A DNA stretch of 64,000 nt from Solirubrobacterales bacterium (GTDB lineage Bacteria > Actinomycetota > Thermoleophilia > Solirubrobacterales > Solirubrobacteraceae), in the NCBI GenBank assembly GCA_019241635.1, contig JAFAWR010000329.1:1-64000 (forward strand). Direction: 5' to 3'. Positions 1-50,994 of the stretch are shown here, in pieces. A program made the position numbers and the translations under genes. Under the pieces are notes generated by a model. The model was given only the letters and a program-made list of their open reading frames with translations, was not told the DNA's origin and did no database searches. How positions within the stretch are numbered: position 1 is the stretch's first letter; every line of letters starts with the position of its first letter.

Positions 1-2459
1 TGCGGCTGGACGCGGTGCAGGTGCGGCAACAGGCGCAGGAGCGCGATCTCGCCCCCGGACATCTGAGCGACGTGGTCGACATAGACGACCTTCAAGCGCT
101 GGTCATCGCGCCGGCGGCGATCCGCCCGGCGCCGCGCCGAGCCCGCAGGGGCGCGGGCGCTCAGGGCAGCACGGTGAACGATGGCGCGATGGCGCTGCGC
201 GACCGTGGGCCAATGGAAGCGCTCCGCGTACGCCCTCGTCGCCTCCCGCGACGGCAACTCGGCCGGCGCGCGCAGCAAGCGGTCCCGAAGGGCGTTGCGA
301 TCGCCGGCGGGCACGATCAACGATGGGTCGAGGCCGGCGACCGTCTCGGGCAGGCCGCCCACGTCGGTGACGATGCTCGGCGTCCCGCATGCGGCCGCCT
401 CGATCACGACCAGTCCGAACCCCTCGTGCTCGAGGCTGGGAACGACGGCGACGTCGGCGGCCCGGTAACAGTCGACGAGCCGCGCGTCGCTGACCCGGCC
501 GAGGAGACGCACGGAGTCCTGGACGCCGTTGGCGGCGATCGCTTGCTCGACGCTTCGGCGCAGCGCGCCGTCCCCGGCGATCAGCAACGTGCTCGGCTCG
601 GGTAGCCCCTCGATGGCCCGTGCCCACGCCTGCACGAGGAGCTCGAGGCCCATCCGGGCGACGAGCCGGCGCACGGCGACGGCCACGAACCCCTCGGCGG
701 GTAGGGACAGGCGGCGCCGGGCGTCCGCCATGGGTGCCGGCGAGAAGCGCTCAAGGTCCACGCCGGGCGGCTCGACGGTAACGGTCCAGGGCGAGACGCC
801 GTAGCGCTCGACGAGCACCTGGCGGAAGGCCGAGCTCAGGACGATCACTTCCTCGGCGCGGCGGTACGCGGCGCGCTCGACCAGCCAACGTACGGTGCGG
901 CGCAGGCTCGAGGGGTCATCCGACACGTTCTCGGCCGCCCACGGACCGTGGAAGTGCAGGACCGCGGGCTTACCGCGCAGGCGGCCGACCAGCAATGGCG
1001 CGAGGGCGTAAAGGGCGAAGTGGGCGTCGACCACGTCGGCGCCGTCCGCCGCTCGTTGCGCGGCTCGCCAAAAGGCGAGGAGCCGCTGCGCCAGCGGCTG
1101 CTCGTGCTCGGAGACGCCGGTGACGCGGCCGGGAACCGACGCGGCAGCGCCAATCAGAACGCCGTTGGCCTCGGGAAGATGCTCGAGGAGGTCGCGGTAG
1201 TAGCGATCGAGCCCCCCGGGCTGATCGGGAAACCATCCCATGCCGAGCATCAGGGGGCGCGGGGCCGCGGTGCTCGTGTCAGGGCCGGCGACCGTCGGCT
1301 CGCCGGCGGGTCGCCGCGAGCCCACGCGTGCCGTTTGCTCCCGGTGGGCGCGCACCCCTTCGTGTAACGCGGCCAGCAGCCCGGCCTCGAACGCGCGGGG
1401 GGAGAAGCGCCGCGCCGCTGCGGCGAGTTCTTCGGGTTGCGCGTCGATCGCGTCGCAGCGGCGGATCGCCGCGAGGATCTCGTCTGCCTCGTGGCGGGGA
1501 AAGAACGAACCGGTGACGCCGTCGACGACCGTCTCGAGGGCTCCGCCGGCGCCGAAGGCCACCACCGGCTTGCCGGCGGCATTCGCCTCGACCGGGGTGA
1601 TCCCGAAGTCCTCCTTGGCGAGTACGCAAAGGGCACGGCAGGCTTCCATGAGCTCGGTCACCTCGTCGTCACCGAGCCGCCCGTGGAAAGCCACCGTCGA
1701 ACCGGCGCGCCGGCGCAGGTCGTCGAGCGCGGGGCCGGTCCCGACCACGTCTAACCCGATCCCGGCGCGAGTCGCGACGTCGACGATCGCATCGACTCGC
1801 TTGTAGGGGAGCAGGCGGGAGACGACCAGCAGCCGCTCACCGCGCGGGCGCGGACGGAAGCGGTCGACGTCGACCGGCGGATAGACGACGGGCGCGTCGA
1901 CGCCGTACTGACGAGCGATCCTGCGCCTGACCTCCTGGCTGATCGCGATGTACAGGTGTGCTCGGCCGGCGGCGTGCCGATCCCAGCGCTGCATCCGGCC
2001 CACGACCGGCCGCAACAGCGCCTTGCGCCGGTCGGCCCCGAGATACTCGCCGCCGTAGAGCCATCGCGCGGGCGTGTAACAGTAGACGGCGTGAAAAGTG
2101 TCCGGCCCGGTGCGCACGCTGTGGGCCCACCCACTCGAGCTAGAGATCACCACATCGTGCTCGAGCGGCCCAAACGAGCGGAACGCCGCGGGGTAGAGCG
2201 GGAACAGGTTGCGAAAGCCGCGATCGACCGGCAGCCAATGCAGACCGGTGACCTGGACGTTGGCGGCGCCGAAGCCGGGGAAGGTCGAGCCGGCTCGGTA
2301 GAGCGACGTGTAGATCGGAGCGTCCGGCCAGATCGCCGCCATCGCGAGTACCACTCGCTCCGCGCCGCCAGGCTGGTTCAAGTAATCGTGGACGATCGCG
2401 ATCGATCCGAGCGCCTCGGGCGCGTCGACCGGCGCGGACAGCGGGAGCGAGATCGACAC
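1..2459 (-). CDS. Fused glycosyltransferase (two complete GT4-like domains plus N-terminus of a third), partial at left edge
   Basis: Manual reverse-strand translation from GTG at 2459 (VSISLPLSAPVDAPEALGSIAIVHDYLNQPGGAERVV...) stays open to base 1; absent from the ORF track because no stop lies in the window. Frame checked at 1379, 1253 and 62. Two GT4-type C-terminal segments (KEDFGITPVEANAAGKPVVAF; LEHEGFGLVVIEAAACGTPSIVTDVGG), then LKVVYVDHVAQMSGGEIALLRLLP. Confidence 0.82.
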   Translation of the reverse strand, partial: MSISLPLSAPVDAPEALGSIAIVHDYLNQPGGAERVVLAMAAIWPDAPIYTSLYRAGSTFPGFGAANVQVTGLHWLPVDRGFRNLFPLYPAAFRSFGPLEHDVVISSSSGWAHSVRTGPDTFHAVYCYTPARWLYGGEYLGADRRKALLRPVVGRMQRWDRHAAGRAHLYIAISQEVRRRIARQYGVDAPVVYPPVDVDRFRPRPRGERLLVVSRLLPYKRVDAIVDVATRAGIGLDVVGTGPALDDLRRRAGSTVAFHGRLGDDEVTELMEACRALCVLAKEDFGITPVEANAAGKPVVAFGAGGALETVVDGVTGSFFPRHEADEILAAIRRCDAIDAQPEELAAAARRFSPRAFEAGLLAALHEGVRAHREQTARVGSRRPAGEPTVAGPDTSTAAPRPLMLGMGWFPDQPGGLDRYYRDLLEHLPEANGVLIGAAASVPGRVTGVSEHEQPLAQRLLAFWRAAQRAADGADVVDAHFALYALAPLLVGRLRGKPAVLHFHGPWAAENVSDDPSSLRRTVRWLVERAAYRRAEEVIVLSSAFRQVLVERYGVSPWTVTVEPPGVDLERFSPAPMADARRRLSLPAEGFVAVAVRRLVARMGLELLVQAWARAIEGLPEPSTLLIAGDGALRRSVEQAIAANGVQDSVRLLGRVSDARLVDCYRAADVAVVPSLEHEGFGLVVIEAAACGTPSIVTDVGGLPETVAGLDPSLIVPAGDRNALRDRLLRAPAELPSREATRAYAERFHWPTVAQRHRAIVHRAALSARAPAGSARRRADRRRRDDQRLKVVYVDHVAQMSGGEIALLRLLPHLHRVQP

Positions 2460-2516: not shown

Positions 2517-2768
2517 TTAAAGAAAGGTGACCAAAGCTCCGACGGTGAGCAACGCGGCGCCGCACGACGCGAACAGCGCGATCAGGGTGACCGTGTGGCG
2601 CTCATCGCGCTCGGCCACGGCGGCGAGGCGGTCCAGCACCTTGCGGCGCCACGCCGCGCTCGGCACCGGCCGGTTCGCCCGCAGGCGGTCGGCGAGCGAC
2701 GCGAGGTCGGCCGCCAGACCGTCTTCGTCGCCGTCGGAGCCGCGGGGGTCGGTCTCGTGCGAGCTCAC
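2517..2768 (-). CDS. Small membrane protein, hypothetical
   Basis: GTG start at 2768 overlaps the stop of the upstream gene (GTGA); C-terminal hydrophobic helix TVTLIALFASCGAALLTVGALVTFL. Confidence 0.6.
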   Translation of the reverse strand: MSSHETDPRGSDGDEDGLAADLASLADRLRANRPVPSAAWRRKVLDRLAAVAERDERHTVTLIALFASCGAALLTVGALVTFL

Positions 2769-4825
2769 GGGCCGCCGGCGAACAGGCTCGATCGCGGGTT
2801 CAGCCGGCGCGCCCGGGCGAGCTCGGAGATCGCGGCGCCGATCGCGCCGCGCCGGGCGTCGATCCGGGCCAGGGTGAGCCATGTCGTCCAGTCGGTCGGG
2901 GCGTCGATGCTGGCTTTCCGCGCGGCCGCCGACGCGGCATCGAGCCGACCGGCCTCCTCGAGCACCAGTGCTTCCTGGAGATGCGCGCCGGCGGCGTAGG
3001 GCTCGATGCGCTCGGCGGCGCGGCTCGCGGCGAGCGCGGCCGAAAGGTGACCGGCGGCGGCGTCGGCCTGGCTGTTACGGATGGCCAGCTGACCGGCGAG
3101 CGGGACGAGGATGGCCCCGAGGGCGGCCACCGCGAGCAGGGCGAGGAGCGTCCGAGGTAGGCGCCGTGCCGGCTCGGGCTCGCTCGCGCCGCCACGCCCG
3201 GCCACGAGAACCGCGCCGAGCACCAATGCGGAGGCGGCGATCGCCGCCAGTTGCCAGACCCACTCCACGGCGGCCGAGAACAGGAACACGGCCAGTCCGG
3301 CGGACGCACCGGCGAGCCACAGGCGCACTCCGGGTGGCTCGCTGACGGCACGCTTGATCGCCACCCCGACGAACCACACCAGCAGCCCCCCGAGAAGCAA
3401 GGTCCCGACGATCCCGGTCTCGGCGAGCGTCTCGAAGTACAGCGAGTGGGCATTGCGGATGAAGCCGGGCGCCGTGGCGTGCTCGGCCCACCAGAACTGG
3501 AAGGTTCCGGGTCCGATCCCTCGCCACGGATCGGTCTCGGCGGCATGCAGGGCGGACTGCCAGAACTGGTAGCGGCTGTTGCCGTTGGCGGCCTGGAGCC
3601 GGGAGAAGACGCTGTTCTCGTTGCCCGGCAGCACGACTCCGCTGGGTTGCTTGAAGTCGTGCCACGCGTGCGCGACCTTTCCCGGGCCGCCGGCGGCGAG
3701 GGCGACGAGGGCCAGGGTGCCCGCCAGGGCCAGCGCCCACCTCGTCGTGGCGCGGCGATCCGGGGCAAGCCACGCGGGCCGTTCGAACCGAGCGGCGCCG
3801 AGTGCGACGGCGACCTGGAGCATCGCGGCCCCCAGGCAGACGATGAGCGCGATCCACGCCAGGCGAGTCCCCTCGGCGATCGCGGCGTGCGTGGGTAGGC
3901 CGCTGGTCAGAGCCGAGCGCTCAGCGGTGGCGCGCAGGAGGATCGCGGCGGCTAGCGCGGTCACGAACAGGGTCAGGAGCGTCTCGAGGCGGCGGGGCAC
4001 GAGGGCCAGGAACACGGCGATACCGACCCCGAGCGCGATCACGCCGCCGCGCGAGACGGTCAGGTACACGCAAACCGGCACCAGGGGCAGCACCGCTGCC
4101 GCGAGCGCGCGGCCCGCGAGCGTCCGGCCGCCCACCGCCACCGCCAGGAGCAGCGGGAACCCGATCGAGCAGTAGTCGGCCAGCGCGTTCCAATAGCCCA
4201 GCGGGTAGCTGAGCTTGCGCCCGCTCGGCGCACCCAAGAACTGGAAGTCGGGATTGGCCGGGAACGCCTGTGGGTGAAGCCTGGAGAGCAGGGCCAGGAC
4301 GGTGACCAAGCCGATCGCCGCGGCCAGCCCGTTGATCGTGTGCCGGGCCGCGGCGCGGCCCTGCAGGGAGATGGCGAGCACGAGGACTCCGAGGTAGGCA
4401 GCGATCCGGCCGAGCTCGATCACGGTTTGCTCGGCGCTCTGCGACCAGCCGGTGGCGAGCCCGGTCCAGGTGGCGAATCCGGCCAGCAGCGCCACCGCGA
4501 CCCAGCCGCGAGGGCCGAACCGGGTGGGCAGCAGGCCGGCCAGGCTGCCCACCAGCACGATCCACCACACCGCCATGCCGGCTTCGCTGCGCACGACGAT
4601 GTCGTAGCCGCCACCGCGCAGAGACAGATAGCTCACAAGGACGAAGGCCAACGCCCACGCGGACAGCGCCGGGATGTCGATCCGGCGCGCCACCCTGGGC
4701 ACGGGGGGCGACGCGGGCGCCGGAAGCCGGACAGCGAGTTCCACCACGTACCGGAGTACGGATCGTCCAGGCCGGACCTGACAGATTCCGCCGCTCCGCG
4801 GAGACGACGACCAAGAAAATAACAA
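2765..4825 (-). CDS. O-antigen ligase/polymerase-like membrane protein with C-terminal TPR-like region
   Basis: Multi-TM protein with Wzy_C-like loop (GIGPGTFQFWWAEHATAPGFIRNAHSLYFETLAETGIVGTLLL) and TPR-like tail; exact start uncertain. Confidence 0.82.
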   Translation of the reverse strand: MLFSWSSSPRSGGICQVRPGRSVLRYVVELAVRLPAPASPPVPRVARRIDIPALSAWALAFVLVSYLSLRGGGYDIVVRSEAGMAVWWIVLVGSLAGLLPTRFGPRGWVAVALLAGFATWTGLATGWSQSAEQTVIELGRIAAYLGVLVLAISLQGRAAARHTINGLAAAIGLVTVLALLSRLHPQAFPANPDFQFLGAPSGRKLSYPLGYWNALADYCSIGFPLLLAVAVGGRTLAGRALAAAVLPLVPVCVYLTVSRGGVIALGVGIAVFLALVPRRLETLLTLFVTALAAAILLRATAERSALTSGLPTHAAIAEGTRLAWIALIVCLGAAMLQVAVALGAARFERPAWLAPDRRATTRWALALAGTLALVALAAGGPGKVAHAWHDFKQPSGVVLPGNENSVFSRLQAANGNSRYQFWQSALHAAETDPWRGIGPGTFQFWWAEHATAPGFIRNAHSLYFETLAETGIVGTLLLGGLLVWFVGVAIKRAVSEPPGVRLWLAGASAGLAVFLFSAAVEWVWQLAAIAASALVLGAVLVAGRGGASEPEPARRLPRTLLALLAVAALGAILVPLAGQLAIRNSQADAAAGHLSAALAASRAAERIEPYAAGAHLQEALVLEEAGRLDAASAAARKASIDAPTDWTTWLTLARIDARRGAIGAAISELARARRLNPRSSLFAGGP

Positions 4826-7201: not shown

Positions 7202-8836
7202 GTGGGGACATACATGCCTGATTCACCCGCCGGTGTGAAGCCGAATCACGCGGGGATGATCTATCCGCCGGCAGTGGAGTTTGACCGTCTTGCCCCCCAG
7301 GACCGCAGCCGCCCGGTGAGCCAGTCCGGACTGGAAGCCCCCCAGGGGCGTGCGACGGAGAGCACCGAGCGTCGTCGCTGGCGCCGCCCCCGCCTGGCCA
7401 TCCCGTTCGCCGGGCTCGCCGGCGGCTTCGGTCTCACCCACGGCGAGCTCGAGCGTCCCATTCGCGAGCCCAACCAGCGCGTCGATGTGAAAAGGCGCGA
7501 CGCTGCCTTCCGGCGATCGCTTGCCGTCGCCGATCTGGTGGCGACCGGTCTCGCCGCCCTCGCCGTGACGATGCTGGCGCATCGCGCGCTCGAGCCCGTA
7601 GCGCTGCTGGGTCTCCCGCTGGTCGTGCTGAGCGGAAAGCTCGTCGGAAGCTATGACCGGGACGAGCTGATCGTCAACAAGGCGACGATCGATGAGGCGC
7701 CTAGGCTGTTCCAGCTCGCCACGCTCTACACGCTCCTGTTCTCGTTGCTGGAGGGGGAGTTCGTGTCCGCACCGCTCGGAGCGCTGGCGCTGACTCTTCT
7801 TTGGGCGACGATGTTCGTGTTCGCGCTGCTGGCGCGCGGCGCGGGCCGGCGAATCGCCCAGGCGGTCACGCCGGCCGAGCGGTGCCTGTTCGTGGGGACC
7901 GAGGGATCCGGAGAGCGACTGCGCTCCAAGCTCGGCGCGCTCGGTGGGCGCGCCGAGCTTGTCGGTCGCATGTCGATCCCCGACGGTGGAGACCGAAGCG
8001 ACGTCGCCGAGGCGGCGGGCGTGCTTCACCGGGTGGTGCAGGAGCTTCGCGTGCACCGGGTCGTGATCGAGCCGAGTGAACCGCAGCCGCAGACGACGCT
8101 CGACTTCGTGCGCGAGGCCAAGAGCACCGGCGCGCGCGTGAGTCTGCTGCCACGGATCCTCGAGGTCGTCGGTTCTTCGATCGAGGTCGACGACGTGGAT
8201 GGTCTCACGCTGCTCGGCGTACGGCAGTTCGGCCTTTCGCGCTCTTCGGCGATCGTCAAGCGCTGCTTCGACGTGGCGGGCGCGAGCGTCCTGTTGGCCC
8301 TGCTCGCCCCGTTGCTGGGCGCGCTCATCCTCCTCATCCGCCTGGACAGCCGCGGCTCGGCCATCTACCGCCAGACCCGGATCGGACGAGGCGGACGACC
8401 CTTCACGATGCTCAAGCTCCGCACGATGGTCGAGAACGCGGATGCGCTGAAGTCGCAACTGCGTGCCCGCAACGAGGCACTCGGCCTGTTCAAGATCGCG
8501 GATGACCCGCGTCTGACGAGAGTGGGGCGGATGCTGCGGCGCTTCTCGGTGGACGAGCTGCCTCAGCTGGTCAATGTGCTTCGCGGCGAGATGAGCCTCG
8601 TCGGCCCGCGCCCGCTGGTCAGCGATGACGACGCGCAAATCACCGGGCTCGATCGTCGGCGGTTGTACCTGACACCCGGAATGACCGGTCGGTGGCAGAT
8701 CCTCGGTTCGGCCCGGGTGCCGTTGGCGGAAATGATCAAACTCGACTACCTGTATGTGACTGGGTGGTCGCTCTGGTCCGACGTGAAGATCCTGCTTCGG
8801 ACCGTGCCGTACGTCCTCGCGCGCCGGGGGATGTGA
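7202..8836 (+). CDS. Exopolysaccharide biosynthesis polyprenyl glycosylphosphotransferase (WbaP/bacterial sugar transferase)
   Basis: C-terminal sugar-transferase signature (KRCFDVAGASVLLALLAPLLGALILLIRLDSRGSAIYRQTRIGRGGRPFTMLKLRTM...FSVDELPQLVNVLRGEMSLVGPRPL...LTPGMTGRWQILG); start may be ATG 7214. Confidence 0.93.
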   Translation: MGTYMPDSPAGVKPNHAGMIYPPAVEFDRLAPQDRSRPVSQSGLEAPQGRATESTERRRWRRPRLAIPFAGLAGGFGLTHGELERPIREPNQRVDVKRRDAAFRRSLAVADLVATGLAALAVTMLAHRALEPVALLGLPLVVLSGKLVGSYDRDELIVNKATIDEAPRLFQLATLYTLLFSLLEGEFVSAPLGALALTLLWATMFVFALLARGAGRRIAQAVTPAERCLFVGTEGSGERLRSKLGALGGRAELVGRMSIPDGGDRSDVAEAAGVLHRVVQELRVHRVVIEPSEPQPQTTLDFVREAKSTGARVSLLPRILEVVGSSIEVDDVDGLTLLGVRQFGLSRSSAIVKRCFDVAGASVLLALLAPLLGALILLIRLDSRGSAIYRQTRIGRGGRPFTMLKLRTMVENADALKSQLRARNEALGLFKIADDPRLTRVGRMLRRFSVDELPQLVNVLRGEMSLVGPRPLVSDDDAQITGLDRRRLYLTPGMTGRWQILGSARVPLAEMIKLDYLYVTGWSLWSDVKILLRTVPYVLARRGM

Positions 8837-9798: not shown

Positions 9799-11751
9799 AT
9801 GAGACGGCGTATGTGTAAATCGCTGTCGGCGCGGGGCGTCGCGCTGGGGCTGGCCGTCGCGGCGGTCGCTTCCCTGGCCATGGCGCCTGCGAGTTTCGCC
9901 GCCGCGCCGCAGCCACCCGCAGTCGGTACCAACTGTCAGCCGGACGGCAAGATCAGCGGCGCCGGCTCGACGTTCCAGGCCAATGCCATCAACAACTCCT
10001 TCACCTACGGCTTCCAGCAGGATGTCTGCGGCCCGCAGCCGAACGTGGCCAACCTGACCTCGGCCTGGGGAACCACCGCCCCATCGGTCTTCAGCTTCAC
10101 CGATGCGGCGGGTACTCACAGCGTCCAGGGAATGGTCGCCTACAACTACAGCCTGAACGGCACCGCGGCCAGCAGTGGCTCCGGCGCCGGGCTGAACCGC
10201 CTCAGCTGTCGGACGGATTTCTTCTCCGGCACCGACCTTCCCTACAACTCCTCTCAGTTCACGTCTTTGAAGGGCGCTCCCGGCGCTCTGCCAACCGCCA
10301 ATGGCACCACCTGTGCCGCGGCGATCAACACGGGCACGGTTCCGGCTCCGTTCGGGCCGCAGCCGACCTCCAGCCCTCCGGCCACGGGTGACACGGCGAG
10401 CACGCCGATCAACTTCCCGGTCGCCGGCGGCGCGGTCGCGTACGCGGTCAACCTCAACGGCATGTGCGCCTCGGGGCCGCCGACCTCGATCAGCCTCACC
10501 GCGGATGAGTTCAACAAGATCTGGATGGGCACGATCAACCAGTGGAACGATTCTGAGCTGGTGGCCACGAACCCGTCGCTGAGCAACGACGGGTGCGCGG
10601 GGAACATCCAGCGCGTCGTGCGGTTCGACAACTCGGGCACCACGGCGATCACGATGTTCACGCTGAACGGCATCGATCCGCAGCCGAACACGCTCTGCGG
10701 CACCGATGCGAGCACGACCTGGCTGGGGATCGCCACCAGCTCGAACAACTCGGGCAAGTGGCCGCAGGCGAACGGGACGGCCCCGGATTGCGTCGACTCC
10801 ACCAGCCATGCCGCTCCCAACCCGGTGACCGCCGGCGCCAACGGCTCTCCGGCGCTGATCAGCAAGCTGCTGAACACCGATGGGGGCATCGGGTACGCCG
10901 AGCTCGGCCTGTGGCCTAACCCGCTGCCCACCGGCGTGTCGTTCGCGACGGTCCAGACCCACGATGACCTGAACACGTCGGGCAACGGGCTGTCGAATCC
11001 GAACCCGGGCCCGGACAGCAACGGCAACCCGGCGTTCCAGGGTCCCGGCAACCCGGGCGCGGCCTCGAACTGCAAGTTCCCGGCTGCGGTTCCGACGGGC
11101 AACAGCGCAACCCTGGCGGTCGGACTCGGCACCCCGAACTGGGAGAACGACGCGTCCGGTCCGCTCAAGCCGGAGAGCGTCGCCTTCACCGGCGCCGGTT
11201 ACCCGGCGTGCGGGCTGACGTTCGACATGGTGCAGAGCAAGATCCACTCCGGTGAGACCGGTGAGGTTGCGGCGCCGTCGGGCGGTCCGTTCACGGCGGG
11301 ATGCCAGATCCCGGCCGAGTCGACCACGACCAACGGCGATCAGACCCTCCCCGAGGCGACGGTCACGGTCGCTTCGACGGCGGGCTTCCCGACCGCCGGG
11401 ACGCTGAACGTGGGCGGTCAGACCGTGACCTACACGGGGGTGACGGCCACGACGTTCACCGGCGCGGCCGGCGGGTCGGGTGCGATCCCGTCCGGGTCTG
11501 CGGTCACCCTGGTCTCGACCACGGCTCCGTCGACCAGCGCGCGGCCGGGCGTGAACGGCGCCTGCCAGACGGTGCCGGGAACGACCTCGCCGATCGTCGG
11601 GGCGACCGATGACCAGCTGCGGACCGAGTACTCGTACTTCACGTACGTGCTCTCCCCGCTCGGCCAGAGCTACCTGGCCGGACAGACCCTCGACCAGCTG
11701 CCCGCCCAGTGGTTGACGGCTGAGCAGGCAGGGTTCCAGCAGAACTTCTAG
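9799..11751 (+). CDS. Secreted PstS-like (phosphate-binding/PBP fold) protein with inserted repeat domain
   Basis: Signal peptide; GAGSTFQANAINNSFTYGFQ...LSCRTDFFSGTD...SKLLNTDGGIGYAELGLWP; insert TLPEATVTVASTAGFPTAGTLNVGGQTVTYTGVTATTFTGAAGG. Confidence 0.68.
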   Translation: MRRRMCKSLSARGVALGLAVAAVASLAMAPASFAAAPQPPAVGTNCQPDGKISGAGSTFQANAINNSFTYGFQQDVCGPQPNVANLTSAWGTTAPSVFSFTDAAGTHSVQGMVAYNYSLNGTAASSGSGAGLNRLSCRTDFFSGTDLPYNSSQFTSLKGAPGALPTANGTTCAAAINTGTVPAPFGPQPTSSPPATGDTASTPINFPVAGGAVAYAVNLNGMCASGPPTSISLTADEFNKIWMGTINQWNDSELVATNPSLSNDGCAGNIQRVVRFDNSGTTAITMFTLNGIDPQPNTLCGTDASTTWLGIATSSNNSGKWPQANGTAPDCVDSTSHAAPNPVTAGANGSPALISKLLNTDGGIGYAELGLWPNPLPTGVSFATVQTHDDLNTSGNGLSNPNPGPDSNGNPAFQGPGNPGAASNCKFPAAVPTGNSATLAVGLGTPNWENDASGPLKPESVAFTGAGYPACGLTFDMVQSKIHSGETGEVAAPSGGPFTAGCQIPAESTTTNGDQTLPEATVTVASTAGFPTAGTLNVGGQTVTYTGVTATTFTGAAGGSGAIPSGSAVTLVSTTAPSTSARPGVNGACQTVPGTTSPIVGATDDQLRTEYSYFTYVLSPLGQSYLAGQTLDQLPAQWLTAEQAGFQQNF

Positions 11752-11799: not shown

Positions 11800-11878
11800 G
11801 TCGCCGAGAACAGCACCGGAACAGACGTAACACGATCAAACAACGTCCACGAGTAGAGCTCTCGAAAGGAACAGGTTG

Positions 11879-13216
11879 ATGAGAAAGTCACCCCCCGCGC
11901 GGTGGCGGCCGCTGAAGGCGGCGGTCGGGATCGGCGCGGCCGCCCTGGCATCGCTCGCGTTCGCGGGCGCGGCCAGCGCGGCGGTGATCGTTGTCCCGGC
12001 CGATAGCAGCGGTTCGGACAACTTCACCGCGGCAGTCAACCAGGCGAATACCAACTCGTCCTCGGTCAACACGATTGTGCTGGAGCCCGGTCAGTACCAG
12101 CCGAAGTCCCAGCCGATCACGATCACCAAGAACCTGAACATCGTCGCCGACCATTCGTTCCAGGCGCCGGAGGGCCTGGGGACGGCGATCGAGATCAACG
12201 GAGCCCTGGCGAACCAGAACGTCAGCAACCAGAACTTCCTGGTGGTCAACCACGGCGTCAACGTGAGGATGGACGGATTCAACCTCGACGGCGCTGGCAA
12301 CGGGCCGGGCAACGCGTCAGTGCTGGTCAACGGCAGCCTGACTACCTACGGCGTGACGATGGACGGTCCGCCCAGCTACGCCATCTCGGTGAGCGCCACC
12401 GGAACCGCGACGCTGAACGGCTCGACGATCAACGGCGGCACGGCACAGTCGCTTCGCAACGCCGGGTTGCTGAATCTCAACAACGTCACGGTCTGGGCAG
12501 GATCCAGCGACGGGCTCGACAACCTCGGCGGGACGTTCAACATGACCAACACGATCATGGCGAACAACGGCTCTCCAGGTCAGGAGTGCATCGGTGGTCA
12601 TGCCGCTAACGGCGGTCCCGGGAGCATCTCTGACGACTCGAGCTGCGGTGTGCAGATCCAGAACGACACGACGCTCGACAGCCAGGCTCCGCTGGGCGAC
12701 GACGGCAACGGCGGACCGGAGACCACGGTCGAGTTCTCCTCGCCGGGCGTCCAGACGAACGTCGGGGTCAACTGCCCGACCACCGACGGACGGTTCTTCG
12801 TGAACCCGGGATCGGCTAGCTCGAGGACGTGCGATGCCGGCGCGGTCACGAGCAGTGCGACCCGGCAGACCTCAGCGCCGGGGTGCTCGGTCTCGAGCAC
12901 GGCACCCGATCACTCGAGCCAGCAGGTCACGCTGCAGGACGCAGCGAGTGGCGAGGGTCCTCAGCCCGGACCGGCGACGGACAACCCGTCGAACACCGTG
13001 GCCACGGCGTATCCGCCGCCCGCCCCGGCTCCGGTCCCCGGGTATGCGGTGACGAATGAGCAGATCAACAACGGAACGATCGCGGCGTTCACTCCGTTCA
13101 CGGCGCCGTCGAACAGCGGGCTGGTGCTGACGGCAACGAAGACGACGGCGGGCACGCCGACGCAGTGGAGCTTTACCGGCATCAACTGGGCCGGCATCGC
13201 CAAGAACTGCTTCTGA
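11879..13216 (+). CDS. Secreted right-handed beta-helix-like protein
   Basis: Signal peptide (AAVGIGAAALASLAFAGAASA); ITITKNLNIVADHSFQAPEGLGTAIEINGALANQNVSNQNFLVVNHGVNVRMDGFNLDGAGNG pattern of parallel beta-helix proteins. Confidence 0.65.
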   Translation: MRKSPPARWRPLKAAVGIGAAALASLAFAGAASAAVIVVPADSSGSDNFTAAVNQANTNSSSVNTIVLEPGQYQPKSQPITITKNLNIVADHSFQAPEGLGTAIEINGALANQNVSNQNFLVVNHGVNVRMDGFNLDGAGNGPGNASVLVNGSLTTYGVTMDGPPSYAISVSATGTATLNGSTINGGTAQSLRNAGLLNLNNVTVWAGSSDGLDNLGGTFNMTNTIMANNGSPGQECIGGHAANGGPGSISDDSSCGVQIQNDTTLDSQAPLGDDGNGGPETTVEFSSPGVQTNVGVNCPTTDGRFFVNPGSASSRTCDAGAVTSSATRQTSAPGCSVSSTAPDHSSQQVTLQDAASGEGPQPGPATDNPSNTVATAYPPPAPAPVPGYAVTNEQINNGTIAAFTPFTAPSNSGLVLTATKTTAGTPTQWSFTGINWAGIAKNCF

Positions 13217-13259
13217 TCGCGCGGCGTCAACCAACCAGCACATACACGGAGACCGATTG

Positions 13260-13334
13260 ATGAAACGGAAATACAGAAAGCCAGTGCTGCGCCGGTTGGG
13301 CCTGCTCCGGCGCCTCACCAGGTTCACGTTCTAA
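13260..13334 (+). CDS. Candidate lasso-type RiPP leader peptide (24 aa) with almost no core
   Basis: ATG AAA CGG AAA TAC ... translates to MKRKYRKPVLRRLGLLRRLTRFTF*, an exact match to YxxPxLxxxGxxxxxT (Y5, P8, L10, G14, T20); purine-rich GGAGA upstream. Too short for the ORF track. Confidence 0.5.
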   Translation: MKRKYRKPVLRRLGLLRRLTRFTF

Positions 13335-13353
13335 CCCTGCTGATGCAGTAGCG

Positions 13354-13395
13354 CACGCCGTCGCGCCCGCCCGAATGGGTGGGCGCGGCGGCGTG
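13354..13395 (+). terminator. Strong hairpin downstream of the leader-like ORF
   Basis: CACGCCGTCGCGCCCGCCC-GAAT-GGGTGGGCGCGGCGGCGTG, 19-bp stem with two G-U wobbles. Confidence 0.55.
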
Positions 13396-13445
13396 TTGAC
13401 ATCTGCGTGACAACGTGGCGCGGTCCCGGCGATAGGTTGCCTTTC

Positions 13446-17120: not shown

Positions 17121-17235
17121 AGTCGTGAATGTCTGGTTACCGAAGCCGCTTCGGCGTTGACACTGTCTGCCCCGTCTGAAAGCGTGGACCGGCGCCGGTT
17201 TGGGGCGAGGCGTTCGCTGCGCTGGCGCACATAGG

Positions 17236-20200
17236 ATGCCGACCTCCGATCCAGACAAGCGAGGACGCCTCGCATGGGTGCTGCTGCTCGCCATCGGGTT
17301 GTGCGTGGCGATGGTCTCGCCCCCGGCGGCGACCGGTCGCGCCACCGGGAACGCGGAGATTGGGTCGACGGGCCGGGTCCTCGCGGCCTTCGGGGCCACG
17401 CGGAAAGCGACCGGCAATGCCGCGCGAGAGGCGCCCGGCCACCCCACGCCCGCGCTGCACCGGCGCGCGCTGGCGGCCGCCGGGACCGCGCCGATGGTCA
17501 CTTTCGCCCCGCTCAGCAATCCGCTGCGCGGCAACCCGGTGACCATCAACGTCACCGCCACGGCGGTTGCCGGCCAGACGATCACCTCGGTTCAGTTCCA
17601 GGACTCGCCGGCCGGCGCCAACCGGTGGACGACGTTCGACTGCTGGCAGGCATCGTTCAATGCGACCTGCCAAGCCACCCAGAGCACGAACACCTACACG
17701 AGCAACTTCGACTCGACGACCCTTCCGAACGGGGTCTACGACTTCCGGGCGCTGGCCACCGACAGTGCCGGAAACAGCGGGACTTCGGCGATCGACTCCG
17801 ACCTGGTCGTCGCGAACAACGCCACCTATGTCGGGCTCGGCAGCCCCGGGACCCCCCTCAGCGGCAGCGTGGATCTCACCGCCACACCCGAGGTGGGTGG
17901 CACCACCCCGGGCGCGGTCACGTTTCTGATCTGCCCGACGTCCGAGGATTGCCCGGCCAACCCGTCTCGCTGGAAGACGTTCTCCACCGTCACCACGGCC
18001 CAGCTCGACAACAACGGAAACCCGTACTTCACGACAACGCTGGATACGACCACGCTCTCGGACGGCACGTATGACCTCGGTGTGAATGCACAGGACCTCC
18101 CGGCTCAGGACGCATTCCAAGGGGGCGCGGTCAGCGACCTGGTCATCGACAACACGCCTCCCACCGTCACGCTCGACAATCCGGGAGGCTCGCTCACCGG
18201 CACCGCCACGCTGAGCGCTTCGGCCAGCGGCTCGCTCTCGGGCGTGGCAAGCGTCAAGTTCGAGGTCTCGCCGGCAGGGACGGGTAACTGGACGACGGTC
18301 GGCGTCGCCGCCAACCCGCCCTACTCCGCGAGCTTCGACACCCGGCAGTTCGGGGACGGCAGCTATGACCTGCGCGCCGAGGCGCAGTCGGGATCGGGCG
18401 TCGGCGCCACATCGAGCGCGGTTTCGGGTGTCACGATCTCCAACCCCGGCGCGCAACGATTCGGCGGCCTTACCCTGACCAACTTCGCCGCCCCGGCCTC
18501 GAACATCAAGCTGCTGGGAGAGCTACCCGGCGCCAGCCACGAGACCTGGGCGATCGGCCAGACGAACGCGCCCCCGCCACCCCCCTTGCGCAACGCCTAT
18601 ACCGCGCAGGGCAACGGCCAGGTCGTGCTGCTGAACTACACCGACGCCAGCGGCTGGCAGATCGTCGACGTCCTGCGCAACGGCGACGGCAGTCCCTACC
18701 CGCTGATCCCGGGTGCCAGCCTCCAGGTGAGCGGGGCGATGACCAGCTCGGGGGAAGCCTGGGTGACGCTCAGCGAAACGCTCAACAGCGGCGGGCATAG
18801 CCAAGCGGAGAGCGGCGTATTCCATCGCCTCCCGGGCGGCCAGTTCACGCTCGACCCGGCCGCGACGGACACCTTGAAGGCGCTGTTGGGCAGCCCGACG
18901 ATGGTTCTCCACGAGACATCGAACGGGACCACGTACGGAATGCTGATGGCCTCGACGCCTCCTGCGCCCAGCCCCCTGCCGACGGTCCCGTCCCCGAATG
19001 GCCCGGTCCCGGTCGGAGTTCACCTCGAGTACGGGCAGCTGTCGGGCGGTACGTGGACGGTTCAGGGCAACACGCTTCCGGCGAGCTACACCGCGCCCGA
19101 CTCGACCACCACGATCACGCTTCCCGCCGGAGCCGCGGACATGACCGGGCCGGGCACGGGGTGGGCCGAGCTGGATCAGTCCTCACAGGCGGGGAGCGTC
19201 GATTCGCTGATCCTGGCCCGCTTCGACCAGACCGGATGGACCTTCCTCCCCGCCACCGGGCTCGACGCGCTCGATCAGACCGGTCCGTTCGCGGTAAATT
19301 CACAGCAGTCAGTCGCCGCTGGGAACACCGTCTCGGTGAAGCCGGTTGCCCTCCACGCCGACGGCAGCGGGCTCTGGCTCAGCGGGACCGTGAGCACGAC
19401 CAGTACCACGGGTTCCGTCGTCGCCCGCTATGACTTCGCTCGCAGCCGGGTCGTGCAAGCGTGGTGTGCCACGCTACCGCGAGCCAGCTTCCAGTGCACC
19501 AGCCCGCTCGACCTCGACCATCCCGCGGCCATTCCGGACGCGGTTTTCGACACCGCGCAGGGACAGGTGGCCGAGGCGCTCTCGCGAACCTCCAACTTCA
19601 TCAACGTGTACTCCGACGGCGCGTGGACGTCGACGCCCACACCAGGGATCAGCGGCGGCCGGACTGGCGCGTCGGCGTTCGCCGACCCGACCGACGGATG
19701 GATCGTCGGCCCGAACACTCTCGCTCAGGTCTCGAGCGCGGCGCCGGCAAGCCCACTGGCGAAATGGCCCGAGCCGAACCGAAATCCTCTGCTGAGCGTG
19801 GCGCTGCCTCCCGGTCAGAGCACCACGGACACGGCCGGGGCGCTCGCGGTGGGGGTGCTGGGCACAGCCATGCACTACGACCCCGTGGCCGGCTGGCTGG
19901 TCGACACCACTCCGGCTCGCGTTCAGCACATCGAGCTCACCGGCGTCGCCTTCGCGAACCCGTCGCTCGCGTTCGCGGTCGGGCAGGCGGGTGCGATCCT
20001 GCGCTGGAATGGGAGCAGCTGGAGCGAGGACCCGCAGTCGGTTCAGGTCACGACTTCCACGCTCAACGCTGTCGCGTTCGGATCGGACGGCCAGGGCTGG
20101 GCGGTCGGGGGCTTCGGAACCATCCTGCACTTTGACGGCAGCGCTTGGTCCCGAGAACCGCTGGACAGCCAGGACGCCGGCGCGAACGTCACGTCGGTCA

Positions 20201-22773
20201 CGGTGGCCGGCGCAGACGTGTACGCGATCGCCAGTGGCAACCTGGTGATGCGGCAAGCCGACGGGACCTGGCAGCGAGTCCAGTCGAGCTCGCTACCGAC
20301 GCCCGCGCCGCCGACCGGCTCGTTGAAGCTCGTCTCCGGGCTGCCGGACGGAGGTCTCGCGGTCGCCGGAAAGTCAGTGCTGATGGTGAGGCAATCGGCA
20401 TCCGACCCCTTGGCCTACGCGCCGCAGAGCTTCAACGGAATTCCGGTCGCGCTCGCCGCCTTCCGAGACGGGGCAGGCACGCTGCGGGCGTTCGTCTCAA
20501 TCGCCCCGCCGATCGCGACGGCCACGGGGCTAAGCACCGACGACGGTGGCTATCCGCCCGGCGACGGCGACCTGCTGCTCCAGAGCAGCGGCGGCTGGCA
20601 GGACCTGAGCCGGGTCCTGCCGGCGGGCTCCACATACTTCGCCGCCGGCGACGGCGTGGTTCAGCCGGACCCGGTGCTGGCGGTCGCGGCATCGCCGGAC
20701 GGCTCCCACGCCTGGGCGGTGGGCGGCTTCGCCGGGACCCACACCGCCGACGGCGTCGGGACCGATCAGATCCTCGCCTCTCGATCCGCCGACTGGTTCA
20801 CCTCGGCGGTCTGGCGCTACGACGCCGGCGGCAGCGTGGGCTCGAGTGCAATCACGGAGGGAAACGTCGATCTTCCGGCCAACCCGGGCACGGTCAGCTT
20901 CGCCTACTTCTCGAGCCCGCTGTGCAAGCTCCAGTGCGCCGCGGTGCAAGACGCCCAACCCGACGTCAACCTGACCAACGCGGCGGCCGAGATCAGCGCG
21001 TTCGCGCAGCAGCCCGGCGGACCCGCGTTCGCGCTCCTCGGCGGCAATGCCCGCGGCCCGATGGACGACAGCGCCTGGGGGACCGGTGGCGGACAGCTCG
21101 ATCTCGGTCGCCTTCCGAGCCTGCTCGCGGGGTTATCGGGCGTGCCCACCTACGCCGCCTACGGTCCTCGGGACGCCGTGCCGACCAGCTCTGATCCGCC
21201 GCTTGCCTGGGCGCAGGCGTTTGCGAACGCGCCGGCGCCGTTCGGTCCAGGGTCACGCCCGCCGGGCGTCACCCCTCAGGGGTCGGGCGATGCGACGGCG
21301 GCGGTCAACAAGTACTACGCGTTCGACGTGAGCCAGAACGGGGGCACGCTGCGCGCGATCGTGCTCGACAACTCAGCCGGCTCACTCGACGCCAGCGCGC
21401 CGGGACAGGAGGCCTGGCTGACGGCGCAGCTCAGCCAGGCGCAGTCGGAGGGCGTGCCAGTCGTCGTGTTCGCAGCCGAGCCACTCAACGTCAACGACGT
21501 GGGGGCGGCCGACGACGCGGATGCGGTCGCCGCCCAACTCGCCGCGGCGGGCGTGCTGGGGGTCTTCACAACCAGCGGGGGTGGGACGAACGCGTGGCAG
21601 AACCAGCAGGACCAGGTCGTCCAGGTGCCGGCGGACGCGCCGATCGGCGCCGCCCAGGTCCCCGAGTACGAGGGGGCAACGCTCACCTACCAACAGCCCA
21701 AGAACAACGGAGTGCTGTGGTACGACGTGTCGGTCGACACGACGACTGACAAGCTCACCGTCAACGCGGTCCCGGTCATCTCCTCGCTGGCGCTCGAGCC
21801 GAAGGACGGACTGAGCGTTGCCCGCAGCCGGACGCTCAGGTTCGTGGCCATCGCCCGGCGCCCGTCCGGCACGATCGCCACCACGCCGGTCGACCCGACC
21901 TTCCCGGGCTACGACCAATACGTCAACATCCCGGCGAGCACATGCTCGAGCTGCGTGGGGCCGTCCTACTCGTTCACGAGCTCGAACCCGGTCGTGGGCA
22001 ACTTCGTCGCTCCGAGCGCCCCGGGGTCGACATTTCCGGCGCACGACCCGAACGGCAAGACGATCCCGTCCTCGAAGTCGGGGTTGTTCTGCGCGTTCAA
22101 CGGCGGCACCACGACCGTCTCGATCACCACCGGCTTGTTGACCACGTCGCTTCCCGTGACCGTGCAATCCGGCGGCTACGGTCAGCCATGTGGGACCGTC
22201 CCCGGTGGCCCCAGCACGAACGTCATCACCGTCCCGGGTCGCGTGATCAACCGGACGGCGCCAAACCCGAACGAGGGGACACCGCTCCCGCCGGGCCAGG
22301 GCCAGGTCCAAGCCGGGCTTCCGAGTACCGTCCCGCCGCCGCCTCTGCCGGCAGCAGCCCCGGTCGGCCACATCGCCGCCAAGGCACCCAAGCCGTCGCC
22401 GCCGCATCGGCCGAGCCCCGTCGTGCCGCCGATCCCCACGCCCGTGCCGGTGCAGCAAGGCCAGCTCGGGGTCCCGCCGGTCGTCCCGCCACTGATCCCG
22501 CCGGCGCTCACTCCGGTCCCACCCGGCGGCGCCACGGTATCCGCTCAGGCCACGGCCCGGCGGGAGGAAAAGGCTCGCAAGCACGCACAGCAGTCGGCCT
22601 TCCTCATCCGTCCGGCGGGCACGAGCGCGACGGAGTGGTTCTATCCGGCGGCCGGCCTGATCACCGTCCTCGCCCTGTTGCTGGCGGCGGGCGGGCTCCG
22701 GCCCGGACCGCGCCCCCGGCCGGCGCTGGCCGAGCTGTGGGAGCCGGTCGAGCGGACGCGGCCCCGGCGCTGA
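17236..22773 (+). CDS. Very large secreted multi-domain protein (Ig-like, BNR/Ycf48-like, metallophosphoesterase-like, C-terminal TM)
   Basis: Ig-like repeats (SNPLRGNPVTINVTATAVAGQTITSVQFQDSP; GSLTGTATLSASASGSLSGVASVKFEVSP); LNAVAFGSDGQGWAVGGFGTILHFDGSAW; GVPTYAAYGPRD...LRAIVLDNSAGSLDASAPGQEAWLTAQLSQAQSEGVPVVVFAAEPL; TM EWFYPAAGLITVLALLLAAGGL. Confidence 0.7.
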   Translation: MPTSDPDKRGRLAWVLLLAIGLCVAMVSPPAATGRATGNAEIGSTGRVLAAFGATRKATGNAAREAPGHPTPALHRRALAAAGTAPMVTFAPLSNPLRGNPVTINVTATAVAGQTITSVQFQDSPAGANRWTTFDCWQASFNATCQATQSTNTYTSNFDSTTLPNGVYDFRALATDSAGNSGTSAIDSDLVVANNATYVGLGSPGTPLSGSVDLTATPEVGGTTPGAVTFLICPTSEDCPANPSRWKTFSTVTTAQLDNNGNPYFTTTLDTTTLSDGTYDLGVNAQDLPAQDAFQGGAVSDLVIDNTPPTVTLDNPGGSLTGTATLSASASGSLSGVASVKFEVSPAGTGNWTTVGVAANPPYSASFDTRQFGDGSYDLRAEAQSGSGVGATSSAVSGVTISNPGAQRFGGLTLTNFAAPASNIKLLGELPGASHETWAIGQTNAPPPPPLRNAYTAQGNGQVVLLNYTDASGWQIVDVLRNGDGSPYPLIPGASLQVSGAMTSSGEAWVTLSETLNSGGHSQAESGVFHRLPGGQFTLDPAATDTLKALLGSPTMVLHETSNGTTYGMLMASTPPAPSPLPTVPSPNGPVPVGVHLEYGQLSGGTWTVQGNTLPASYTAPDSTTTITLPAGAADMTGPGTGWAELDQSSQAGSVDSLILARFDQTGWTFLPATGLDALDQTGPFAVNSQQSVAAGNTVSVKPVALHADGSGLWLSGTVSTTSTTGSVVARYDFARSRVVQAWCATLPRASFQCTSPLDLDHPAAIPDAVFDTAQGQVAEALSRTSNFINVYSDGAWTSTPTPGISGGRTGASAFADPTDGWIVGPNTLAQVSSAAPASPLAKWPEPNRNPLLSVALPPGQSTTDTAGALAVGVLGTAMHYDPVAGWLVDTTPARVQHIELTGVAFANPSLAFAVGQAGAILRWNGSSWSEDPQSVQVTTSTLNAVAFGSDGQGWAVGGFGTILHFDGSAWSREPLDSQDAGANVTSVTVAGADVYAIASGNLVMRQADGTWQRVQSSSLPTPAPPTGSLKLVSGLPDGGLAVAGKSVLMVRQSASDPLAYAPQSFNGIPVALAAFRDGAGTLRAFVSIAPPIATATGLSTDDGGYPPGDGDLLLQSSGGWQDLSRVLPAGSTYFAAGDGVVQPDPVLAVAASPDGSHAWAVGGFAGTHTADGVGTDQILASRSADWFTSAVWRYDAGGSVGSSAITEGNVDLPANPGTVSFAYFSSPLCKLQCAAVQDAQPDVNLTNAAAEISAFAQQPGGPAFALLGGNARGPMDDSAWGTGGGQLDLGRLPSLLAGLSGVPTYAAYGPRDAVPTSSDPPLAWAQAFANAPAPFGPGSRPPGVTPQGSGDATAAVNKYYAFDVSQNGGTLRAIVLDNSAGSLDASAPGQEAWLTAQLSQAQSEGVPVVVFAAEPLNVNDVGAADDADAVAAQLAAAGVLGVFTTSGGGTNAWQNQQDQVVQVPADAPIGAAQVPEYEGATLTYQQPKNNGVLWYDVSVDTTTDKLTVNAVPVISSLALEPKDGLSVARSRTLRFVAIARRPSGTIATTPVDPTFPGYDQYVNIPASTCSSCVGPSYSFTSSNPVVGNFVAPSAPGSTFPAHDPNGKTIPSSKSGLFCAFNGGTTTVSITTGLLTTSLPVTVQSGGYGQPCGTVPGGPSTNVITVPGRVINRTAPNPNEGTPLPPGQGQVQAGLPSTVPPPPLPAAAPVGHIAAKAPKPSPPHRPSPVVPPIPTPVPVQQGQLGVPPVVPPLIPPALTPVPPGGATVSAQATARREEKARKHAQQSAFLIRPAGTSATEWFYPAAGLITVLALLLAAGGLRPGPRPRPALAELWEPVERTRPRR

Positions 22774-22808: not shown

Positions 22809-23804
22809 TCAGACGACGGCTCGGACGAGCGCCACGGCCCGCTCGAGATCGCGCCCCGAGCTCAGCCTGTAGCAGCGCACCTGCCTGAGCAGCGCGGCGA
22901 TCGCCCGTAGGTGCGAATGCGTCGCCGCCGGATGGGTGAGCAGCACGTCGGGCACGAGCCGGAGCATCGCCGCGCCCTGATCGAGTGCAGCGATCCGGCT
23001 GGGCGCCCCGGGGGCGATCGTGGGGAAGACCAGCGCGCGGGGCTCGCAGTCCGAGAGGGCGGGCACCCCGAACAGGTCCTCGCTGCGGTGCAGGCGTTTC
23101 GGAAAGCCGTCGGGGAGAGGCTCCTCGGTTGCGGGCCGAAGCTCGGGAAAGTGGGCGGCGGCATGTTCAGTGAGGCCCACGGTGTCGGCGAAGCCAAGCA
23201 CCCGAACTTCGCCCGGGTCGGTGCCGGACCCGGGGCGCGGGGCGAGAAACACGATGTCGTCCGAGAGAAAGCGCATGCCCGAATGCGCGAGCGCCACCGC
23301 AAGCGTGGACTTACCGGCGCCGCTGGCGCCCGCGAGCAGTACGCCCTCTCCGGTCGCGGAGGCCAGGCACGCGGCATGCAGGGCGAACCGGCCGCGGCGC
23401 TCGAGCAGCTCCATCAAGCTGATCGTGGCCAGCGGGTGAGTCGCCAGGTACAGGTCGCGGCCGACGAACGCCGGGCTGCGCAGGCGGGCCACGCCGCGGC
23501 CGGCCTCGGCGCGGAGCTCCACCGCGCCCAGGCGGCCGAGGAGCAGGTCGGCATCGGGGAGGTAATGGAGCGTTCCGTGGGGGGTGTCGTACACCGGGCG
23601 GGCCGCTCTCGGGGGCGCATGCGCTTCGGGCGCGTCGGCGGTGACGAACTCGAGGCGAAGCTCCGGGTCCGGCGCCTCCTCGCTGGCGAAGTCGCGCAGG
23701 CGAAGCTCCATCGCATCGATCACCGCGCCGTCTTCCGCGTAGACCCCGAGCTCGACTCCGTGCAGCTCGAAGCTCCGCGGTGCGACGGTCGCCGCGCTGC
23801 TCAT
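22809..23804 (-). CDS. HprK-like/lasso-associated kinase
   Basis: Walker A GASGAGKSTLAVALAHSGMRFLSDDIVFL typical of HPr-kinase-related RiPP kinases; ATG overlaps upstream stop (ATGA at 23801-23804). Confidence 0.8.
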   Translation of the reverse strand: MSSAATVAPRSFELHGVELGVYAEDGAVIDAMELRLRDFASEEAPDPELRLEFVTADAPEAHAPPRAARPVYDTPHGTLHYLPDADLLLGRLGAVELRAEAGRGVARLRSPAFVGRDLYLATHPLATISLMELLERRGRFALHAACLASATGEGVLLAGASGAGKSTLAVALAHSGMRFLSDDIVFLAPRPGSGTDPGEVRVLGFADTVGLTEHAAAHFPELRPATEEPLPDGFPKRLHRSEDLFGVPALSDCEPRALVFPTIAPGAPSRIAALDQGAAMLRLVPDVLLTHPAATHSHLRAIAALLRQVRCYRLSSGRDLERAVALVRAVV

Positions 23805-24262
23805 GCGTTCGCGAGCGGCAGCCGGTAGAGCTCGGCGAACCGCGGTCGAGGATCACGGCGCTCGAGGAACGGCTCGCCGTCGAGCGAGAGCCAACAGTGG
23901 CCATCGGTGCCGTGCTCCTCCCGTGGATCGAGTCCGAAGCGCAGCTCCACGTCGAGTCCGGCCCGGCGCAGGAACCAGAACAGCGTCACCCCCCGGGTCA
24001 GGCAACCGGGGCGGACGAGTGGCCGGGCGACGCGCGGCGCGAGGGTGGCCAGACGGTCCAGCCGTTCGATCTGGGCCGCGCACGGAGCGGGCCGAGGCCG
24101 CCGCGGGGCGCGACTGAGCAGCGCCGCCGCGCGGGGCAGCGGGAGGTGCATCATCAGGGGCACGGCGGCCGCGAACGCGCTGACGCGGACCAGGAGGACT
24201 AGCTCGCCGGGCCCGCGCAGCTCCCGCAACGCGCCCAGCCGGCTAGCCAGCGGCGAGAACAA
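23801..24262 (-). CDS. Lasso peptide biosynthesis B2-like (transglutaminase-core 3) protein
   Basis: CLTRGVTLFWFLRRAGLDVELRFGLDPREEHGTDGHCWLSLDGEPFLE is the Cys/His core of the B2 family; TTG start at 24262. Confidence 0.82.
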   Translation of the reverse strand: MFSPLASRLGALRELRGPGELVLLVRVSAFAAAVPLMMHLPLPRAAALLSRAPRRPRPAPCAAQIERLDRLATLAPRVARPLVRPGCLTRGVTLFWFLRRAGLDVELRFGLDPREEHGTDGHCWLSLDGEPFLERRDPRPRFAELYRLPLANA

Positions 24263-24539
24263 GCAGCCGCTCGCGGCGCAGATCGTCGATGAACTCGAGC
24301 ACGTCGGCCTGAACGATCCGCTCGGGCACGTCGAACTCCTCGCAGAGAAGCGCGACGATCTCCGCGACTGCCCGTTGGCCGTCGCACAGCTCCCAGATCA
24401 TCGCCCCGACCTCGTCGAGCGCGTAATAGCCGCCGTCCTCGAGGCGGAGGAGGACCGTCTGGCCGTGCGCCTCCTGGGCGAGGATCCCCTCCTCGCGGCG
24501 TACCCGCTCCGCCAGGACGGTGTCCGAGCCGCCGCTCAC
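24243..24539 (-). CDS. PqqD-family RRE protein (lasso B1-like)
   Basis: GTG at 24539; GQTVLLRLEDGGYYALDEVGAMIWELCDGQRAVAEIVALLCEEFDVPERIVQADVLEFIDDLRRERLL matches the PqqD fold pattern. Confidence 0.85.
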   Translation of the reverse strand: MSGGSDTVLAERVRREEGILAQEAHGQTVLLRLEDGGYYALDEVGAMIWELCDGQRAVAEIVALLCEEFDVPERIVQADVLEFIDDLRRERLLVLAAG

Positions 24540-25732: not shown

Positions 25733-26078
25733 TGCCCCTCGGTGACGGGTGGAGTGTCCACCGGTTCTCCTTCCGGGGTGATCGTCGCGGCTGGCGCCCG
25801 CCCGGTAGTGACCGCTGCGTAAACGTCGTGTGGGCAAGCGGTGAACGGTGCCGTCGGGCGCGAACGCACGACCTGTGAAGGGTCCATCGGCCTCAGTCTG
25901 AGCCTAGACCTGACGGTTACTCCCGGGGCAGTTTTGACCAGGACGTCAGCGTCTGGTGTCCGTGCTGTGAACCGGGGCCCGTCGGGATTGACACCGCTCT
26001 GAGGGTCTGTGACGGTTGGGCCCGCTTGGGGCGTTGGGGGCGGCCGTGGTCGTTCCGTGACCGGCCGAGTGATCCTTC

Positions 26079-32069: not shown

Positions 32070-32133
32070 CCAACCAGACCGCGGTCACACGCGGGTCACT
32101 CGGGCGCGGCCGGGCGTGGCTAGGCTCGCGGCC

Positions 32134-33156: not shown

Positions 33157-33158
33157 GC

Positions 33159-50913: not shown

Positions 50914-50994
50914 CAGGCTGGATCGTGGTGCCCCGGCCGGCGTAGCAGCGCACGATCGGTCTAATTGGGCCCCGCCCAACCCACCGCCAAGACG

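Follow-up and report, generated by a model that had tools for sequence, protein, structure and literature searches.

A 24-codon reading frame with a lasso-type leader and a four-residue tail: a candidate ultra-short kinase substrate from a Solirubrobacterales bacterium

A short reading frame with a lasso-type leader

The window analysed here is a stretch of 64,000 nucleotides (nt) from a Solirubrobacterales bacterium (contig JAFAWR010000329.1). It contains, on the plus strand, an open reading frame (ORF) of 24 codons that runs from an ATG at 13260 to a TAA ending at 13334 and encodes the peptide MKRKYRKPVLRRLGLLRRLTRFTF. The product matches every defined position of the lasso leader motif YxxPxLxxxGxxxxxT, and a GGAGA lies seven bases 5' of the ATG, exactly as an earlier sequence-only reading had described. 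The features of this locus are as follows.

11876-13216, plus strand: gene for a secreted protein, possibly of beta-helix type, ending 43 nt before the peptide ORF (N-terminus, weak profile match)
13244-13253, plus strand: ribosome-binding site region, holding GGAGA (sequence)
13260-13334, plus strand: precursor ORF (leader profile, homologues, alignment)
13272-13319, plus strand: leader motif Y-x-K-P-x-L-x-R-L-G-L-L-R-x-L-T, conserved across five family members
13320-13331, plus strand: four-residue tail RFTF, with candidate phosphoacceptor Thr23 at 13326-13328; F[ST]F-stop common to two short homologues (loci L108 and L146, below)
13353-13396, plus strand: 20-bp hairpin that probably terminates the unit of secreted gene and peptide (folding)

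The hairpin begins 19 nt past the stop, as first noted, and has a 4-nt loop and a stem one base pair longer than the 19 bp first claimed; folding of the 86 nt downstream of the ORF gave -57.4 kcal/mol (z = -5.9). The upstream gene had been read as encoding a secreted beta-helix protein, and of this the signal-peptide-like N-terminus stood, while the beta-helix identity is weakly supported (choice_anch_Q, 13.2 bits against a cut-off of 25). An ortholog of this gene was sought by synteny, and no relative was found in 100 genomes.

The occurrence of the motif was compared with chance expectation. Motif, start codon and ribosome-binding site together occurred once in the window and in none of 60 Markov-simulated windows. 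The CTN-codon version of the motif had a single occurrence in the whole genome assembly; across 61 genomes of relatives it gave four forward matches where the reversed control gave one; of the remaining matches, at least two resemble genuine leaders. A leader profile (hidden Markov model) was then built from 28 motif peptides of the same class, mainly near genes for B2-type leader peptidases, with the window ORF excluded. Against it the ORF scored 13.5 bits, on a scale where noise from unrelated ORFs (about 0.96 Mb) reached at most 6.5 bits, long-core leaders mostly scored 27-40 and odd subfamilies 10-20. The NCBIfam model lasso_leader_L3 (NF033521) gave 13.3 bits, under its curated cut-off of 19. 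The ORF is a real gene, beyond a chance motif.

The peptide had been said to possess essentially no core. Its lasso-type leader is indeed genuine and is followed by very little, only four residues standing after the leader Thr, compared with at least 11 in the other motif peptides near B2 genes of the class, chance hits aside. However, the tail is not empty, as an F[ST]F element places a Ser or Thr three to four residues past the leader Thr.

Conservation of the peptide and of its early stop

A wider scan based on a kinase alignment covered 33 loci and gave three closer operons, L106, L107 and L108. The only ORF above noise in the 33 loci was MRRRYVKPKLTRLGLLRKLTGAFSF in L108 (15.5 bits, profile without the window peptide), which lies beside a PqqD-kinase pair and is divergent from the PqqD gene. 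A profile made from the window and L108 peptides recovered MTTRKRYAKPRLRRLGLLRTLTRFSF (L146), a further copy from the genome of L108 that was outside the training pair (E = 5e-8), together with two long-tailed relatives in the L107 genome, beginning VKKLYRRPVLRHLGLLRRITHVLSGVGDPDPPRG (E = 6e-5) and VRATYTKPVLMKHGLLRRITQVLSSTEGADPPRG (E = 0.0015).

The three short forms share the consensus Y.KP.L.RLGLLR.LT and end in F[ST]F-stop, the tail being RFTF in the window and RFSF or GAFSF in its short homologues. The Ser/Thr stands at +3 from the leader Thr in the window and L146 peptides, and at +4 in L108 and in both long forms. Each pair of short forms has 15-17 identical residues, of which 10-14 are specified by different codons, and therefore it is the peptide, rather than the DNA, that is conserved. 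As judged from these alignments, the short form is under protein-level selection. Conservation of the stop position had been proposed as a check, with long-core homologues as the case that would point to a frameshift. Such homologues do occur in one distant genome; however, the short end is kept in two independent homologues, and since the short forms share the F[ST]F-stop despite codon change, the early stop is conserved and a frameshift is excluded.

The family is very patchy, and at genome level its members co-occur with the PqqD/kinase system, every member recovered coming from a genome with a window-type kinase operon. No convincing further member was found in 201 relatives of the window genome (single-sequence search), 299 of G439 or 291 of G438, and plasmid and viral collections yielded nothing. 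A BLAST-type peptide search of the 201 relatives returned weak matches only, the best of which (G005) is a genuine long-core leader; a match in G567, which sits inside a long unrelated ORF, was rejected as chance. From the identical B2 coordinates and scores for G377 and G439, the L108 genome appears to belong to the same class as that of the window. Strong hairpins follow the window and L146 peptides, and a weaker one follows that of L108. The long-tailed homologues (L154, about 9890-10051; L155, about 1205-1357, minus strand) have GTG starts and Asp/Pro/His-rich tails, and come from a metagenome-assembled genome labelled Bacillota; one is flanked by rplI-like and dnaB-like genes.

The PqqD, B2 and kinase operon

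The operon of recognition element, B2 peptidase and kinase that had been noted about 9.5 kb from the peptide was confirmed. It comprises the following genes; RiPP denotes a ribosomally synthesised and post-translationally modified peptide.

22809-23804, minus strand: HprK-like kinase with intact H/P-loop/DD motif (profile matches, motif residues)
23801-24262, minus strand: leader peptidase of the lasso B2 type, Cys and His conserved (NF033537, 56.8 bits, cut-off 33; alignment)
24243-24539, minus strand: PqqD-type RiPP recognition element (PF05402, 1.1e-22; matches TbiB1 and PbaB1 structures)
24536-25735, minus strand: nucleotidyltransferase (PF14907, 1.5e-48)

The nearest family of the kinase is HprK_rel_A. 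Its residues H142, G158, G161, G163, K164, S165, D181 and D182 reproduce all eight positions of the BsfK motif, H148-G163-G166-G168-K169-S170-D186-D187 (PMC10368454). The PqqD protein has 5v1u and 9x90 as structural relatives and matches lasso PqqD models, though under their cut-offs. An asparagine-synthetase-type cyclase (PF00733) was not found in the window's genome, which is 75% complete. The surroundings are those of surface polysaccharide synthesis (2765-4825, 7202-8836, 31921-34217 and 50965-54725), with genes for an O-antigen ligase, a sugar transferase, GDP-mannose dehydratases, a DegT aminotransferase and a glycosyltransferase, and sugar-nucleotide genes. This setting resembles that reported for the clusters of paeninodin and of the linear polyphosphorylated peptides (LPPs).

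Beside the kinase gene, 17200-22773 encodes a very large secreted protein with immunoglobulin-like and BNR-type repeats, and in the L108 genome an 811-residue secreted protein adjoins the PqqD-kinase pair. Across loci L042-L105 of the class, the occurrence of lasso-type leaders closely tracks B2 phylogeny (five changes, against 17.5 for shuffled labels). In family f9, no motif peptide lies within about 10 kb of the B2-kinase-PqqD operons, and the conserved small ORFs found in these operons proved to be fragments of larger genes or antisense only.

A putative minimal kinase substrate

The reading we favour, and hold to be rather more probable than the others together, is that the window ORF is a real and conserved RiPP-type precursor, an ultra-short, LPP-like kinase substrate presented by PqqD. 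The ORF is read as a leader plus a phosphorylation site because of the Ser/Thr spacing, the kinase motif, the apparent absence of a cyclase and the polysaccharide setting. Residues 5-20 would form the leader that docks on the PqqD-type protein, and the C-terminal four, RFTF, a minimal core, its Ser/Thr being offered to the operon's HprK-like kinase. That residue is probably phosphorylated by the nearby kinase, perhaps repeatedly, and the PF14907 nucleotidyltransferase may alter the phospho-residue further. A B2 cut beside the leader Thr would release a phospho-tri- to pentapeptide; a role together with the secreted partner is likewise putative. Cleavage by B2 is doubtful and the weakest step of the mechanism, because B2 does not adjoin the L108 operon.

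The spacing agrees with two characterised kinases. LppK phosphorylates Ser3, three residues past the leader/cleavage Thr (PMC13381572), and BsfK, accelerated by a PqqD-type partner, phosphorylates core Ser3, four residues past leader residue -2 (PMC10368454); the family offsets of +3 and +4 equal these spacings exactly. The window copy carries Thr in place of Ser at this site. An S3T substitution is tolerated by BsfK (PMC10368454), whereas the S3T variant was left unphosphorylated by LppK (PMC13381572), so that the Thr counts against our reading. Several other observations do so as well. The operon lies at a distance of 9.5 kb and on the opposite strand; neither B2 nor the nucleotidyltransferase adjoins the L108 operon, B2 being present elsewhere in that genome; and the L106 genome has a close operon, yet no family member was found there. 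In the B2 tree the nearest neighbours of the window enzyme in the class, with weak support (83/63), come from operons near which no motif peptide lies, a grouping that weakened the case until the L108 peptide was recovered and that also led us to reject the idea of an ordinary lasso operon here. In being strongly basic and free of acidic residues, the peptide also differs from nearly all lasso leaders collected.

Other explanations were weighed against the same evidence. The sequence-only reading had offered a leader-only, signalling or guide/decoy peptide, and a regulator that is neither cut nor modified but occupies PqqD, as a guide, decoy or activator while another precursor or the secreted partner is matured, would account for the near-absent core, for an L108 operon without its own B2 and for the place of the peptide gene right behind secreted genes, as in the window and L146. 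We consider this unlikely, as the conserved F[ST]F end is needless for a pure docking peptide and a motif search of the window gave no other precursor; a minimal-core phospho-substrate fits better than a bare guide or decoy because the Ser/Thr sits at the position used by HprK-like RiPP kinases (PMC13381572, PMC10368454). It is less probable still that the peptide is processed or acts with the upstream secreted protein, the two genes forming a unit in which the peptide is a small partner or a subunit that bears a cofactor. The short gap from gene to peptide (about 13-50 nt) in the window (43 nt) and L146 (within about 20 nt) speaks for such a unit, as do the 40-44-residue YxKPxLVxH peptides of the sister family f9, which stand behind secreted genes near kinases of this type, as a rule at two places in each locus. 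However, no such clear arrangement is seen at L108 or at the long-form homologues, and no common family was detected between the secreted partners of the window and L146.

A chance ORF, or an attenuation leader in which a short ORF and hairpin control transcription of the next gene, is very improbable: although the ORF is short and Arg-rich in GC-rich DNA, whose composition favours Arg, and the hairpin lies 19 nt on, the peptide is conserved at the protein level with synonymous change, matches the lasso-leader profile and co-occurs with PqqD-kinase operons. We give least credence to a truncated or frameshifted lasso precursor. The +1 frame past LT reads GSRSNPADAVAH, with a Gly and then an Asp at ring distance as in a lasso-like Gly1...Asp8 core, and long-tailed homologues exist in G438. 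This +1 core (GSRSNPAD...) was nevertheless rejected, since the F[ST]F-stop ending is common to three short copies in two genomes and GC at third positions is 3/12 in the +1 frame, a non-coding pattern, against 20/24 in the ORF. Moreover, the strong hairpin falls within the would-be core, and no cyclase was found in the 75%-complete genome.

Comparison with known systems

The LPPs, described in 2026 (LppA/LppB/LppK/LppN/LppS), combine a recognition protein, an HprK-like kinase and a nucleoside triphosphate (NTP) transferase in polysaccharide loci, with no cyclase; their precursors have 35-200 residues and the motif YxxPxVLxHQxIxFETxxS (PMC13381572). The window system is alike in its discrete PqqD-type protein (PF05402) and its HprK-like kinase with intact catalytic motif, and its leader matches YxxPx[V/L] as YRKPVL, with Y, P and L conserved in five members. 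PF14907 corresponds to the uncharacterised NTP transferase in the window operon, being absent beside that of L108. The apparent absence of a cyclase, the polysaccharide locus, the Ser/Thr three residues past the leader Thr and the patchy distribution are further likenesses. In contrast, the full motif is not matched, as the window sequence YRKPVLRRLGLLRRLTRFT keeps Y, P, V/L and T..S/T without HQxIxFE, so that the leader body is RLGLLRxLT instead of LxHQxIxFET. The precursors are also shorter (24-26 residues), a B2-type peptidase stands where LPPs have an SpI-like one, and the hosts are of an Actinomycetota-type class whereas LPPs are known only from Bacillota. Neither an SpI-like leader peptidase nor an MsbA-like transporter, another LPP feature, was found among the window proteins scanned with Pfam. 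We would call the window peptide an ultra-short variant of the phosphorylated linear RiPPs, which works like an LPP without having every LPP feature.

With the phosphorylated lasso peptides of the Bsf type (BsfA/B1/B2/K), in which BsfK targets a core Ser near the cleavage site, the window shares the YxxPxL leader, a separate PqqD-type B1, B2 and the HprK-like kinase (PMC10368454). It differs in that no cyclase was found and the tail is too short for a lasso ring. B2 is a cysteine leader peptidase as in lasso systems, and YxxPxLxxxGxxxxLT is held in common with lasso_leader_L3; however, a lasso core needs a ring of 7-9 residues and a tail, and only 4-5 residues follow the Thr in the three short forms. 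A lasso product from this ORF is unlikely because the cyclase was not found and the tail is unable to form a ring, and the peptide is not a lasso peptide. PqqA, for pyrroloquinoline quinone, and MftA, for mycofactocin, are likewise precursors of very small size that are recognised by a PqqD-type protein and have only a few core residues. The motif here is different from theirs, and no radical S-adenosylmethionine partner turned up, no test having been aimed at one.

Among precursors of such phosphorylated peptides, that of the window may be the smallest so far. More tentatively, there could be a class of near-coreless RiPP precursors with the terminal F[ST]F as sole modified unit, giving a phospho- or polyphospho-tri- to pentapeptide, or an uncut phosphopeptide that serves as signal or as partner of a co-transcribed secreted protein, one HprK-like kinase type serving both tiny and longer peptides. 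ORFs of such length are dropped by gene finders, so precursors of this kind are invisible to genome mining, and PqqD-kinase operons with no obvious substrate thus appear orphaned. A natural precursor consisting of a leader and a phosphorylation site would be a clean minimal system in which to ask if PqqD presentation is enough to set the site, and if the phosphate is an end product or a step. It would also carry the newly described linear phosphopeptides beyond Bacillota.

Sister peptides near HprK-like kinases

Peptides of 40-44 residues with the pattern YxKPxLVxHxNLxxTFECxxWxCSVxVP and ribosome-binding sites were found near HprK-like kinases in f9 genomes, at L115 (9037, 13072), L119 (9016, 13101), L120 (835, 4916), L124 (9008), L125 (588), L126 (6, 5280) and L127 (9021). 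Gene-by-gene inspection of four of these loci (L115, L119, L120 and L126) placed peptides immediately 3' of genes for large secreted proteins, mostly as two copies at each locus. The leader is similar to the published LPP motif, and by its sequence the family has the look of LPP-type precursors from actinobacteria, with CxxWxC as a conserved core.
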